Origin: Halobaculum sp. MBLA0143
GTDB taxonomy: Archaea > Halobacteriota > Halobacteria > Halobacteriales > Haloferacaceae
DNA length: 64,000 nucleotides
Assembly: GCF_041361465.1 (NCBI RefSeq)
Contig: NZ_JBGKAC010000001.1
Span: 868,001-932,000 of the forward strand
Reading direction: 5' to 3'
The translations under genes and the position numbers were made by a program. Each line of letters starts with the position of its first letter. Position 1 is the first letter of the stretch. The notes beneath the pieces were generated by a model. The model saw only the letters and a program-made list of their open reading frames with translations, was not told the DNA's origin and ran no database searches. Shown piece by piece: positions 5,224 to 41,421 of this stretch.

Positions 5224-8067
5224 TCAGGGCAGGTCGCCCAGCCCGTACCCCTGGCGTCGGGCGACGGCGAACGCGACGGCGACGGCAGCGGCCAGGACGG
5301 CGATCCAGGCGGTCAGCCCGGCGGCGGCGCCGGGCGTGGCGCCGGCGGCGCCGACGGCGGCGACGACCGCACCCCCGAGGACGACCCCGCCGACCCCGCC
5401 GACGACGGCGCTACCGCCGACGGCCACGAGCCGACGGCGGCGGGTCTCGCCCAAGTCCGCGACGGAGAACGGCTCCAACGCCGGCGCGTCCAGCAGCTCG
5501 GCGTCGACGAAGGCGGCGTACGACGACCCGGGGGCGTCCGACGACGCCTCGTACGACCGGCGGACGGCGGCGAGTCGGTCCGGAACCGTGCCGCCACTGC
5601 CGGGCGTGTCCAACAGCGTCCCGCCAGAGCCCGGGAACACCGCCGCCTCGGAGACGGGTGGGTAGCGCCACCACGCCCGGAACGCCGCCAGCCAGCCGAC
5701 GAGCGCCGGGTGTCGCCCGGCGGGTCGGGCGGCCGCGACGGCGACTGCCGCGAGACAGACCACGGCCTGGAGTCCGACCGGGACGGCCGGCAGCCCGCCG
5801 ACGCCGAGCAACGGCGCACCGGCGCCGAGCCCGTCCAGCGCGCCCGACAGCGCCGCGAGCGTCAGCGTCGCCGCCGCGGCGACCGCGCCGGCGACGGTGG
5901 CCCAGCCGACGGCCGCGGCGCGTCGACGTGCGGTCGTCGCCGGCGCAGTGATCGTGAACCGGTGGTCCTCCGGCAGCCGCTGGGTCAACAGCTCCGCCAG
6001 GAACGCCTCCAGGTGGGTGTCGTCCGCGCCGGTCTCGCGCACCTCCTCGGCCACCGCCTCCACGACGGTGACGAACGCGTCCGTCGCCTGCCGAGTCCGG
6101 TCACCCAGTGCCTGGCGGTCGACACGCTCTGCGGCCTCGCCGACCAGTTCCACCCCGTCTGCGGTGTCGTCAGGCTGGATCACCACGTCCGCCCACTCCG
6201 TCTCCCGAGTGCGGCCGGCGTCGGCGACGACCACCCCGGCCCGCGGCACCGTCTCGCGCACCCACCGGAACAGCTCCACCGCCTTCGAGTGTGTCGGGAC
6301 CCCGAAGTCCGCCGTACCGGACTCCAGCAGGGCCGCGAACTCGCCGGGCACGTCCGGCTCGAACGGCGTCGCGTCCGTCGCGTGCTCGAACACGAGCGAC
6401 GGGCCGGTCGTCCCCTCCGCCGGCCGCCAGCCCAGTTCGTCGACGGTCGCCCGCACCGTCTCCACGAACGTCTCCACGAGTTCGTCGGGCGCGGCCCCCG
6501 ACGCCTCGAAGTCGGCGAGAAACGTCTCCGGTCCGTTCCGGACGGCCGTCACCGTCCCCCGAGCGCGACCACGCGCCGGGTCGACGGCCAACGCGACCCC
6601 GTGGTCTGCCGCCCGGACGGCCCGTTCGTCGACGCCCGGCTCGTCTCGCTCTGTCGACAGCGCCAGCTCTCCGGTCGCCGTCTCGTACAGCCGGAGCTCG
6701 TAGCTCGCGGCCGGCGCGAGCCCGAGCTTCGGCCCGCCGCGCCCGGTCGACTCCGTCGAGACCGCCCGGCGCGCCGGCCCGTCAGCGTCTGCACTGTCAC
6801 CCCCGAGGTCGCCGTCCGGCGGACCACGACCGGCGCTCGTGGGGTCCGGGCCACTACCGATCGGTCCCGGGTCGGTGTCCGCGGAACCACGGCCGCCCCC
6901 AGCCGGTTCTGGGTCGGTGTCCGCAGGACCACGGCCGCCCCCAGCCGGCTCCGGGTCGGCGTCCACTCCCCCCGTGTCACCGGACCCCGTGTGGGCGTCC
7001 GTCGGCGCCGTCGACCCCGAACGCTCTTCCGGCGTGGCGTCGGCCGAACGGCGCTCGTCGCCCGGCTCCGACCCCTCGCGGGGGGTGTGGTCGGGCCCGC
7101 CTCCGAGCACGTCGCTCGCCGGGTCCGGCTCGTCGCGGCGGGTGCGGTCGGGGGCTCCACGCGGCACGTCGTCGGGCGCGTGTGGGCTCCGGGGAGAGCC
7201 CGGGTCCGGCGACCCGGCGTCCGCGTCGCCGCGGGCGGGGTCGGTCGACCCCCCGCGTTCCGTGTCGTCTGTCAGCCCGTCGAACGGGTCCCCCCCCGAC
7301 AGCGCCTCCAGGTCGAACTCGTCGTCCCCCGTCGCCGGCTCGCCGGTCGGAGCCGTCGAGGCGTCGTCCCGACTCCGGCCGACGCCACCGGGTGCGCCGC
7401 GGGTCGGGTCCGTCGCCGACGGGTCGGTGCCGTCGGACGGAGTCCCGGACGTTCCGGCGCCCGGCAGCGGCTCCACGACCGGCTCCGAGGCGTCGGGGTC
7501 GCTCGTCACCACCACGTCCACGCCCGACGGCGGGTCGAAAGCACCCGCGTCCGACTCCGTCACGACGACGGACGACGGCCGACCGTCGGCCGTCCGGACG
7601 AGGTGGTTGAACACTGCCACCGCGTCGGGGGTCGACGGGGTCGTCACGAGCGCCGGCCGGTCGCCGACAGCCCCTCCGAGCGACGACTGCCCGGCCGCGA
7701 CCGGGTCCAGCGCCCGGTTGTCCAGCTTCCGGAACACGGTCCGGGTGAGACTGTCGTCGGCGACCCGCCAGCCGTTGGTCTCCAGCCCGGAGTCGACGAA
7801 CCGCTCGAAGTTGCTCCAGGGCGGCTCCGGTACGCCGGCGTAGCCGTCGCCACTCCAGCGCCCCTGCGCGACGACCGGTCGACGCTCCCCGTCGACCGTC
7901 GCCGCGAGGAGACACCGGATCTCCCCCCCGTCGGCGTCCGCCCGGTAGGCGGCGAGTACCCCCGTCTCGAAGTCACGACGGGCTCTCGCGGCGTCGTTCC
8001 GGCGGACGTCGTCACCGTCGATCGGGCGGCCGGCCGCGGCGTCGAACAGGTTGACGCGGAGGCTCAC
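5224..8067 (-). CDS. Large membrane protein with disordered centre, function unknown
   Basis: A 947-aa protein from a GTG start. Residues ~1-190 form a globular region with no motif I recognise (RVNLFDAAAGRPIDGDDVRR, later WSNFERFVDSGLETNGW). Residues ~190-430 are a low-complexity Asp/Pro/Gly/Thr stretch containing an almost exact internal duplication (ADTDPEPAGGGRG twice). A second globular block (~435-690) has ELRLYETATGELAL and VPTHSKAVELFRWV segments. The C-terminus has two hydrophobic pairs (~700-775 and ~875-940) flanking a ~100-residue soluble loop. The protein is much longer than its neighbours and was not recognised. Because the disordered linker joins two possibly related folded halves, a scaffold or signalling role is conceivable, but this is only inference. 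Confidence 0.75.
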   Translation of the reverse strand: MSLRVNLFDAAAGRPIDGDDVRRNDAARARRDFETGVLAAYRADADGGEIRCLLAATVDGERRPVVAQGRWSGDGYAGVPEPPWSNFERFVDSGLETNGWRVADDSLTRTVFRKLDNRALDPVAAGQSSLGGAVGDRPALVTTPSTPDAVAVFNHLVRTADGRPSSVVVTESDAGAFDPPSGVDVVVTSDPDASEPVVEPLPGAGTSGTPSDGTDPSATDPTRGAPGGVGRSRDDASTAPTGEPATGDDEFDLEALSGGDPFDGLTDDTERGGSTDPARGDADAGSPDPGSPRSPHAPDDVPRGAPDRTRRDEPDPASDVLGGGPDHTPREGSEPGDERRSADATPEERSGSTAPTDAHTGSGDTGGVDADPEPAGGGRGPADTDPEPAGGGRGSADTDPGPIGSGPDPTSAGRGPPDGDLGGDSADADGPARRAVSTESTGRGGPKLGLAPAASYELRLYETATGELALSTERDEPGVDERAVRAADHGVALAVDPARGRARGTVTAVRNGPETFLADFEASGAAPDELVETFVETVRATVDELGWRPAEGTTGPSLVFEHATDATPFEPDVPGEFAALLESGTADFGVPTHSKAVELFRWVRETVPRAGVVVADAGRTRETEWADVVIQPDDTADGVELVGEAAERVDRQALGDRTRQATDAFVTVVEAVAEEVRETGADDTHLEAFLAELLTQRLPEDHRFTITAPATTARRRAAAVGWATVAGAVAAAATLTLAALSGALDGLGAGAPLLGVGGLPAVPVGLQAVVCLAAVAVAAARPAGRHPALVGWLAAFRAWWRYPPVSEAAVFPGSGGTLLDTPGSGGTVPDRLAAVRRSYEASSDAPGSSYAAFVDAELLDAPALEPFSVADLGETRRRRLVAVGGSAVVGGVGGVVLGGAVVAAVGAAGATPGAAAGLTAWIAVLAAAVAVAFAVARRQGYGLGDLP

Positions 8068-36016: not shown

Positions 36017-36703
36017 TCAGATCACGTACCACTGTCCCAACAACGACAGTGTCGCGGCGACCCCGCCGAACCCGTAGCCGAACACGAGCGTCCCGGGGAC
36101 GGCCGCGGCCGCGAGCGTTCGGGAGACCGACAGCCCGTGGATCTCCCGCAGCCCGACGACGAGGAGGTACGCCCCGTACCCCGCCACGAGTACCTGCACC
36201 TCCAACACGGGGACCCCGGCGGCCACACACGGTGCCGCGGCGTACGCGATCACCTGGACGGTCTCGCTCACGCCGCCGCGGTCGGCCGTCCGGAGCCAGC
36301 CGTCGCCGCGGACCAACGCCGCCGCCGTCGCCCGCAGCCGAACGGCCGCCGTGACCAGGAACACCGTCTGGAGCGCGGCCGCGAGGTGGAGTGTCGCCGG
36401 CGCGACCAGCAGTCCAACCGCGGCCAACGCCACGACCACAGAGCCAGCACGACCACCGAACACGCCCGGCACGAGCCCCGGCTCCGCCGCGATTCGCGTG
36501 CCGGCGAACGTCAGCGCCACTACGACGGCGAACACGAGCCCCGGCGCTTGGTCGCCGGGCGCGATTCCGTTCCTGAAGAACCGTCGGGGGTGGACGACCA
36601 CCTCGAACCAGGCGCGCGCCAGCCCGCGGACGCCGCGTGCCCGCCCGCCCTCCGAGTTCTCGACCCACGTCGTCACGCGCAGCCGTTCGTCGCTCGCGGT
36701 CAT
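36017..36703 (-). CDS. YIP1-family membrane protein
   Basis: A 228-aa protein with five or so transmembrane helices after a ~45-residue cytosolic N-terminus containing VVVHPRRFFRNGIAPGDQAPG, a motif typical of archaeal/bacterial YIP1 proteins. The GVSETVQVIAYAAAPCVAAGVPVLE segment (helix with conserved Tyr/Ala/Pro) also fits. The molecular role of prokaryotic YIP1 proteins is unknown. It is a single gene; the next gene downstream on this strand belongs to the DHH protein. Confidence 0.75.
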   Translation of the reverse strand: MTASDERLRVTTWVENSEGGRARGVRGLARAWFEVVVHPRRFFRNGIAPGDQAPGLVFAVVVALTFAGTRIAAEPGLVPGVFGGRAGSVVVALAAVGLLVAPATLHLAAALQTVFLVTAAVRLRATAAALVRGDGWLRTADRGGVSETVQVIAYAAAPCVAAGVPVLEVQVLVAGYGAYLLVVGLREIHGLSVSRTLAAAAVPGTLVFGYGFGGVAATLSLLGQWYVI

Positions 36704-39082: not shown

Positions 39083-41188
39083 ATGGAACTGCAACGGGAG
39101 AGTGACGCGTTCCGGGTGATCGACGCTGCGAAGAACACTGTACGAATCGGCACGGACGGGTGGGACGGTGGCGCCGACGCCCCCACGGTCACGGACGCTA
39201 TCTCCGTCGGCGGGGACAACTCCGAGGTGGACCCAGACATCTCCGTCAGCGGGACGACAGGCGGACTCGAATTTCCCCAGACTGCAGTCAACGTTGTCCG
39301 GCTGGACACGGACGAACGATTCCGTGTCAGTACCCACCAGGATCGGGTTCTGTTCGAGCCAGGGAGCTACGTGCTCCGGATCGACTCTGAGCCACGAGTG
39401 TACGTCCGGTTCGACGGCTCGGGAGAGATCAACCGACACGCGCGTGGCCAGATCACCCTGTCGCTGTCGGACCCGACGCCGCTAACTATCCGTTTCAACA
39501 GCGATACAGGGCGACCAGGCGACCAGATCACGGTTGGATCCAGCGTCGAAGACGTGGCGAGAGCGCTCCCGTTGCTCGCTGCCGCGACCGACTGTACGAC
39601 CCCAGACCGGACCTGGCCGGCTGCCAGGAAAGACCCAGTAGGGATCAGGCTCGGCGAGGCGTTCGATCGGCCAGACGGGCTCGAACCGCTCGACACGGGC
39701 GTAGAGCTCGTCGTCCCTCCGGAACTGCGCTACCTCGTCGCGAGTGCGTCGCTGGTCTCCTATCTGGGCGCAGACGTGCGGCTGGAGCAGGACTGTACTC
39801 CGACACTCCGGGTAGGTGGTGAACCCCACCGGCTCGGTCCCCTCCCGGAGTTCCAGTACGAGGTTGCCTCGACGCTCCGACGAACGTTCTACCTCGACTG
39901 TCTCGCCCGCGAGGCCGGGCCACACGCAGAGCGCGTGTCTCTCTCTCACTACCTCCCGGAACTCGGGTTGGACGCGGACTGGCTGTACGAGGCACCGATT
40001 GCGGATCGAGTCCAGGCGTACCTGAACGCCCCGTTCGACTCTGTTACCGAGGAGTTCCCCGAGTGGAATCTCTCGATGTACGTCGAACCGAGTCTCGAGA
40101 ACGTTGAGTGTCTCCCTTACTTCCTAGAGGGGCTGCCGTTCTTCTTCCTCCCGGAGTCGGAGGAGTTGGACAAGGCGGAGTGGATCTCGCTGTCGATGGA
40201 CGACAGCTACCAACACGGCGACCAGACGGCCGACCCTCGTGAGCCGACGGACGAGACGTTCACACGTCTCCAGCGGGAGATCTCGAACGTCGACCTGGTG
40301 AAACCTGTGTTGGGGCCGAGCCGCTACCACGGCTGGCTGGGCGACGACGTGCCAATCGACGTGTTCAAAACGTTTCCGGAGGCGTACGAGAACCGCCAGA
40401 AGTACCTCGACGACAGTCCAATCTCGGTAGTCGCGGTCCTCAACAACGCCGACATGCGGGAGGAACACGACGCTGCAGTTGAGCGGTACGAACAACAGGC
40501 GGACGCACTCAACATCGACATCGAGGTGCGAGAGAACATCACGAGCGCCGAGCTCGCCCGAGTGTTCGAGTCCCGCAACGACCTGGTCCACTTCATCGGT
40601 CACAGCGACGAGGACGGGCTGGAGTGTGCCGACGGCTTCCTCTCCATCTCGTCGGTGTCTGAGTCGAACACACAGACGTTCTTCCTCAACGCCTGTGGCT
40701 CCTACCACGAGGGCGTCGGGCTCGTCCGGAAAGGGAGTGTCGCCGGCGGTGTCACCTTCGAGGCGGTGACGGACAGCCAGGCCGCAAAGGTTGGGACGAC
40801 GTTCGCCCGGCTGATGGTGTCGGGTTACTCGATGGAGCGAGCGCTCGATAAGGCACGACAACAGGTGATGACACCCAAGGACTACGCGGTGGTCGGGGAC
40901 GGGACACACGTCCTGACGCAGTCTGATGCAATCATTCCACCGGGCCACCGCCTCTCCGAGCACGACGACGAGTGTGTTCTCGAAGTCACACAGATGACTC
41001 CAAGAGAGAAAGGCGGTGAAGGACAAGAGAGATTCGAAGGGTTCGACCTGGACTTCCACCTGAACGCACAGCGACGCACGTACCGCTTCGCCAAAGAGGA
41101 TCTATCGGCGGCAACCGAAGTGATCGAGAACCCAGTACTGTTCGACGGACAGCTCTACTGGTCAGACGAACTACGAGAGCTACTCTGA
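39083..41188 (+). CDS. CHAT-domain (caspase-like) protein
   Basis: A 701-aa soluble protein. Residues ~1-150 are mainly short beta strands (FRVSTHQDRVLFEPGSYVLR). Residues ~160-440 form a mixed region unlike any family I know. The C-terminal ~250 residues match the CHAT fold: the ISVVAVLNNADMREEHDAAV strand-helix, then NDLVHFIGHSDEDGL with His507, then NTQTFFLNACGSYHEGVGLV with Cys538, and a closing MSVEATDSQ-like strand with YSMERALDKARQ. The His and Cys, each at the end of a hydrophobic strand and 31 residues apart, are the dyad of CHAT/clan-CD proteases. No signal peptide is visible, so it is cytosolic. The convergent neighbour is a small single-span membrane protein. Activity and substrate are unknown. 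Confidence 0.72.
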   Translation: MELQRESDAFRVIDAAKNTVRIGTDGWDGGADAPTVTDAISVGGDNSEVDPDISVSGTTGGLEFPQTAVNVVRLDTDERFRVSTHQDRVLFEPGSYVLRIDSEPRVYVRFDGSGEINRHARGQITLSLSDPTPLTIRFNSDTGRPGDQITVGSSVEDVARALPLLAAATDCTTPDRTWPAARKDPVGIRLGEAFDRPDGLEPLDTGVELVVPPELRYLVASASLVSYLGADVRLEQDCTPTLRVGGEPHRLGPLPEFQYEVASTLRRTFYLDCLAREAGPHAERVSLSHYLPELGLDADWLYEAPIADRVQAYLNAPFDSVTEEFPEWNLSMYVEPSLENVECLPYFLEGLPFFFLPESEELDKAEWISLSMDDSYQHGDQTADPREPTDETFTRLQREISNVDLVKPVLGPSRYHGWLGDDVPIDVFKTFPEAYENRQKYLDDSPISVVAVLNNADMREEHDAAVERYEQQADALNIDIEVRENITSAELARVFESRNDLVHFIGHSDEDGLECADGFLSISSVSESNTQTFFLNACGSYHEGVGLVRKGSVAGGVTFEAVTDSQAAKVGTTFARLMVSGYSMERALDKARQQVMTPKDYAVVGDGTHVLTQSDAIIPPGHRLSEHDDECVLEVTQMTPREKGGEGQERFEGFDLDFHLNAQRRTYRFAKEDLSAATEVIENPVLFDGQLYWSDELRELL

Positions 41189-41208
41189 CACCGGGGAGGT
41201 CGCTGCAA

Positions 41209-41421
41209 TCACGGTTCTCTCGGGCCGTCGCTGTACGAACTTGCCGCCATCTCCGGAGCACTCTCTACCCCGACGACCAGCTCCCCCGCGACGGTGGAGA
41301 CGCCTGCGAAGGTGACGAGGACCGCGAGCACGATGATCGCCGCGAGGAGCCGCGGGTTCGTCGTCAGGATCTGGGTCACTGCGTTCGATGCGAGCCGTCG
41401 GGTCACGCCTTCTTGCGCCAT
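41209..41421 (-). CDS. Small single-span membrane protein facing the CHAT gene
   Basis: A 70-aa protein with a basic N-terminus (QEGVTRRLASNAVTQILTTN), then NPRLLAAIIVLAVLVTFAGV as one transmembrane helix, then an acidic/polar tail (SAPEMAASSYSDG). The TNPRL-helix plan resembles a family of haloarchaeal small hydrophobic peptides of unknown function (DUF7503-like), though the match is from memory. It is convergent with the CHAT gene, with 20 bases between stop codons. The ATG at 41421 has an AT-rich GTTTATCC about 30 bases upstream on its strand. Confidence 0.6.
   Translation of the reverse strand: MAQEGVTRRLASNAVTQILTTNPRLLAAIIVLAVLVTFAGVSTVAGELVVGVESAPEMAASSYSDGPREP

Follow-up and report, generated by a model that had tools for sequence, protein, structure and literature searches.

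Small proteins with a conserved Gly-Pro tail are paired with CHAT-like, predicted clan CD proteases in Halobacteria

Two convergent genes in the window (the whole stretch of 64,000 nucleotides of Halobaculum sp. MBLA0143 DNA that was analysed) raise the question of whether a predicted protease and the small protein encoded next to it belong together and, if so, which part of the small protein matters. The first open reading frame (39083-41188, plus strand) codes for 701 aa from an ATG start. The second (41209-41421, minus strand) codes for 70 aa from its ATG, although its reading frame stays open further upstream; it is kept in both close orthologues, and its whole-gene pN/pS is 0.7. The stop codons of the two genes face each other tail to tail, exactly 20 nt apart, as described in an earlier note on this DNA, which had read the pair as a CHAT-type protease with a one-helix membrane protein as its target or effector. 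The surroundings are those of an ordinary haloarchaeal chromosome, with genes for L7Ae, S28e, NDK, L21e and Rpb4 on one flank and for the regulator TbsP and TmcA on the other. A Yip1-domain membrane protein gene (36017-36703, minus strand) adjoins the Rpb4/L21e cluster and shows nothing unusual. In agreement with the same note, no gasdermin gene lies beside the protease gene, the neighbours being ribosomal, TbsP and TmcA genes and the 70-aa protein; no CRISPR genes were detected among the neighbouring proteins scanned at the locus, and the family search of the 701-aa protein gave no TPR match.

The 701-aa protein was modelled with AlphaFold2 (pLDDT 84, pTM 0.85), and the model matched the structures of gingipain R (Z 20.6), separase (Z 18.1), SAVED-CHAT (Z 17.0), Craspase (Z 14.7) and caspase-7 (Z 11.7), sequence identity to separase and gingipains being 11-18%. 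A sequence search of the PDB with the protease gave no match. The predicted caspase-like catalytic domain corresponds to residues 441-613 (40403-40921, plus strand), lies inside the region of the structural matches and contains a match to Pfam CHAT (PF12770; residues 457-601, E=0.0015, 18.5 bits); since this score does not reach the gathering cut-off of 24 bits, the protein is termed CHAT-like here. One relative carries the annotation 'CHAT domain-containing protein'. The proposed catalytic pair was found at the residues named in the earlier note, His507 in HFIGHSD (40601-40603) and Cys538 in LNACGS (40694-40696), and is kept in 68 and 67 of 69 homologues, respectively, a conservation that extends to homologues at 24-30% identity; every member of this set also has G512 and C515. 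The dyad lies at the ends of adjacent strands, as in clan CD peptidases. These results indicated that the 701-aa protein is, by its modelled fold, a clan CD cysteine protease (caspase/gingipain/separase/CHAT). The N-terminal region of about 440 residues had been said to resemble no known domain, which proved true of only part of it. Residues 1-145 (39083-39517) form a predicted beta-sandwich without a confident relative, for which no solved structure stood out in the structure comparison (best Z 7.2, not above chance level). Residues 147-440 (39521-40402) constitute a conserved alpha/beta region with invariant R182, D272, R276, W328 and W418, and the clan CD match begins within it, near residue 326; the part from there on corresponds to the first half of gingipain/separase-type proteases.

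Homologues of the protease were found in 46 of 60 related genomes, and also on large haloarchaeal plasmids. The source genome contains about 13 copies of the family and genomes of the same genus gave 12-15 matches each. An evenly drawn sample of the phylum gave matches in 50 of 295 genomes; beyond the order these were restricted to four genomes of one family, whose divergent proteins have no convincing partner. In the core orthologue group the order of a glyA-like gene, the protease gene and the TbsP gene is widely syntenic, indicating that the window member is a long-standing chromosomal gene and not a mobile cassette. No conserved upstream operon partner emerged beyond this synteny. A mobile or viral defence cassette was also rejected: the family had no match in phage records, none in viral contigs and none among the PADLOC anti-phage models at E<=1. 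Several haloarchaeal and related homologues have a broken His-Cys dyad (L040, L195, L196, L198, L211, L215-L217 and L219-L222), and nearly all of these pseudoproteases are partnerless.

Partners were counted with an unbiased rule: the ORF had to be convergent, to code for 20 aa or more with Gly-Pro as its very last residues, and to have its stop between -60 and +500 nt from the protease stop. Such an ORF was present at 104 of 149 non-redundant proteases, with a median gap of about 6 nt, versus 170 of 6778 random anchors in the same loci (2.5%) and 0 of 149 for same-strand ORFs. About a dozen further partners, that of the window included, share this layout except that a short extension comes after Gly-Pro, which is then internal. 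Overlapping or abutting stops are frequent, the two lying within 30 nt of each other in 95 of 124 pairs, and the gap ranges from -23 to 460 nt. Pfam family DUF7503 (PF24335), to which Pfam assigns no function, covers one clade of the partners: 54 of its 55 above-cut-off matches in the 60 genomes adjoin this protease family, and Haloferax volcanii has a match above the cut-off. The small protein of the window scores 11.4 bits, under the 27-bit cut-off, and shares position, orientation, helix and Gly-Pro motif with DUF7503-type partners. Annotation had missed some of these genes, one partner being labelled only 'hypothetical protein' and another being absent from the plasmid table. The pairing that had been proposed from a single locus thus represents a real module of two genes, conserved well above chance.

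What stays constant in the partner is not its membrane helix. Most partners have [N/H/R]-P-[R/K] and a short hydrophobic helix that ends in small residues, and the window's partner follows this scheme: its helix after NPR (residues 25-45; 41287-41349, minus strand) has a signal-peptidase-like small-residue end, and its C-terminal tail SSYSDGPREP (41212-41241, minus strand) carries the family Gly-Pro motif. A hydrophobic helix is found in about 90 of 124 partners, and these fall into two helix classes with opposite charge patterns. Selecting by hydrophobic helix alone failed to recover many partners and was discarded as a criterion, the Gly-Pro tail being the common feature. In at least two lineages the partners are soluble or tiny. 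Those of Natrialbaceae are soluble, with a variable N-terminus and a fixed end, ..RVSTYGGP, encoded with synonymous codon changes, and tiny partners of 20-30 aa end in ..GGSGYTGP or ..SSPYTGP. In Natronorubrum texcoconense (L137), two unrelated small proteins, at 6146 (minus strand) and 6700 (plus strand) of the locus, both end in TYSGP beside one protease. The partner at L066 (4942-5447) lacks a helix and consists of 13 tandem 39-nt units encoding TADGNSGGISGP(Y/F). In these repeats 12 of 13 positions show no amino acid change at a pS of 0.59 (pN/pS 0.04, strong purifying selection), and such conservation at high synonymous divergence indicates selection on each copy of the tail. Degenerate partner ends were seen at L199 and L184 (VGGA, GTTIV), the L199 protease also lacking W693. 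The tail, and not the membrane helix, is therefore the conserved part of the partner, and the N-termini are interchangeable. A small convergent gene is kept beside most homologues, and none of the three refuting outcomes named in the earlier note (a fold other than clan CD, an unconserved dyad, a small gene that is not co-conserved) was observed. The membrane helix of the small protein, which that note saw as a possible target or effector, is absent from the soluble, tiny and repeat forms.

The presence of a partner was then compared with the state of the dyad. A partner (Gly-Pro end, or Gly-Pro plus a short extension) lies beside 122 of 154 intact-dyad proteases (about 79%) versus one of 13 broken-dyad homologues, a link that is suggestive and not proof, since only four independent dyad losses underlie it and the association is not significant after kinship correction. 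About 20% of the intact-dyad proteases, whole clades among them, have no adjacent partner; in the partnerless clade of L034, L048 and L054 a cupin-like protein, judged by eye from its translation, is encoded convergently in its place. The pair may also work unlinked, as suggested by one genome of the same genus (G001). Its protease L044 lacks the adjacent partner that clade mates have (L031 tail, ENGMIGIGP), and the same genome contains the only stray strong DUF7503 match of the survey (L181, 3917-4123; G001:C1:2950092), convergent with TbsP and with no protease nearby, whose tail ENGMVGIGP matches that of the L044 clade. A similar search for unlinked STYxGP partners in Natronorubrum genomes without an adjacent one gave a single match, which is chance level.

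Based on these results, we consider it somewhat probable that the module consists of a CHAT-like protease and a small protein whose Gly-Pro tail is the private ligand setting the activity of that protease. The tail is kept on any carrier, membrane-less ones included, which suggests that it is read by a cytosolic protease. The protease, predicted to be catalytically competent, would meet the tail in the cytosol and bind it, while the N-terminal part of the partner would only fix where the tail is displayed: on a membrane or signal helix in most lineages, on a soluble segment in Natrialbaceae and as tandem tails in one species. As the partner tracks catalytic competence, the tail would most likely inhibit the protease or serve as its antidote, in the manner of securin or an antitoxin, or be a pseudosubstrate consumed when the protease fires; it may instead be an activator, a substrate or a secreted signal. 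Two observations weigh against the ligand reading: the intact-dyad proteases, whole clades among them, that have no partner beside them, and the partners, that of the window among them, in which Gly-Pro is internal. A candidate binding site is the C-terminal beta domain of the protease (residues 615-701; 40925-41185, plus strand), with invariant G644 and W693. When W693 was considered as the binding residue, its co-occurrence with the partner, clear in the raw table, was not significant after kinship correction. A Gly-Pro tail carried in cis by the protease was also considered and rejected, since only two proteases end in GP (L049 and L113), which is about chance frequency.

A different role for the partner would be that of an effector, released when a stress or infection cue leads the protease to cleave the small membrane protein, so that the freed helix or tail acts in the manner of gasdermin or Csx30. 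CHAT proteases elsewhere have dedicated neighbouring targets (PMC10989679; Craspase structures), and both the frequency of the hydrophobic helix and the co-occurrence of partners with intact dyads are compatible with such a switch. However, no cleavage-site residue is conserved ahead of the tail across partner types, and a membrane effector cannot account for the module in general, as membrane segments are absent from the soluble, tiny and tail-repeat partners; we regard this explanation as unlikely.

We find it more doubtful still that the helix serves as a Sec signal peptide and that the short tail ending in Gly-Pro leaves the cell, is taken up again and acts on the cytosolic protease as a signal of population or self, in the way of RRNPP/arbitrium pairs with a caspase-like protein as the receptor. 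DUF7503-type partners do have a signal-peptide-like site, with [VA] at -3 and A at -1 in 35 of 36 each and a Gly helix breaker in 32 of 36, followed by variable tails of about 8-10 aa. This clean [AV]-x-A site also speaks against the tail-ligand reading, as it would lead to export of the tail, out of reach of a cytosolic protease. The basic KR directly ahead of VSTYGGP in the soluble types and the resemblance of the L066 tandem tails to multi-copy pheromone precursors point in the direction of a secreted signal as well. Yet a signal peptide is lacking in the soluble and repeat forms, tails are long (20-45 aa) in the genus of the window, the module contains no exporter or importer gene, and no sensor domain was identified. 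Finally, the idea that the small ORF is incidental, its end arising from an element that is conserved as DNA or RNA at the 3' terminus of the protease gene, would fit the overlapping or abutting stops, but it can practically be dismissed given the variable gaps, the low pN/pS of the L066 repeats, the unlinked (L181) and opposite-strand (L137) copies, and the use of every synonymous codon for Gly (GGC37/GGT27/GGA21/GGG19) and Pro (CCG55/CCC35/CCT9/CCA5) and of all three stops (TAA41/TGA32/TAG31), which shows that the constraint acts on the protein.

Returning to the tail as a private ligand, the broader picture for Halobacteria, tentative and less assured, would be one of many parallel, insulated pairs, in which a short Gly-Pro peptide on interchangeable anchors (in some cases made in 13 tandem copies) controls a caspase-like protease and possibly also serves as a secreted signal; this would amount to an archaeal system of peptide-gated caspases.

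Among known systems, the module resembles Craspase, the TPR-CHAT/Csx29 protease of type III-E CRISPR with Csx30, in combining a dedicated partner with a clan CD protease whose catalytic domain is preceded by an N-terminal part. The halobacterial protease differs in having neither TPR nor a CRISPR effector and in matching Craspase over the protease half only, and its partner is small and Gly-Pro-tailed. Pairs of a gasdermin and a protease in bacteria and fungi, in some of which the protease is of the CHAT type, likewise cluster a protease with a small effector in which a short C-terminal peptide matters; however, no gasdermin is involved here, the partners are of 20-100 aa and some lack a membrane segment, and the genes are convergent and do not form an operon. 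Separase and gingipains, together with SAVED-CHAT, provide the closest folds, and separase has a dedicated inhibitor in securin, although identity is low, as given above, and the partners are unrelated. Caspase-like activity and stress-linked death have been reported in haloarchaea without gene homologues (PMC3615174), and a survey of prokaryotic caspase homologues listed no more than 93 p20 proteins from archaea, with no pseudo-variants among them (PMC6426788). The activity of H. volcanii prefers Asp at P1 (PMC3615174), and the protease described here is only a candidate source of it. Our literature search found no paper naming DUF7503, linking CHAT domains with haloarchaea or describing the pair. 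CHAT-like proteases and proteases with a dedicated partner are known kinds; the literature found contains no description of the Gly-Pro-tail partner or of how widely it occurs.

The partner motif is short and defined and, with a DUF7503 match in the genetically tractable H. volcanii, the pair is directly testable in that organism. The pairing also provides a lead to the function of DUF7503 and reveals that many such partner genes have been overlooked in annotation. With this family, haloarchaea gain a large set of conserved proteases of predicted clan CD fold, most of them with a defined peptide partner, where caspase-like activity had no known gene.
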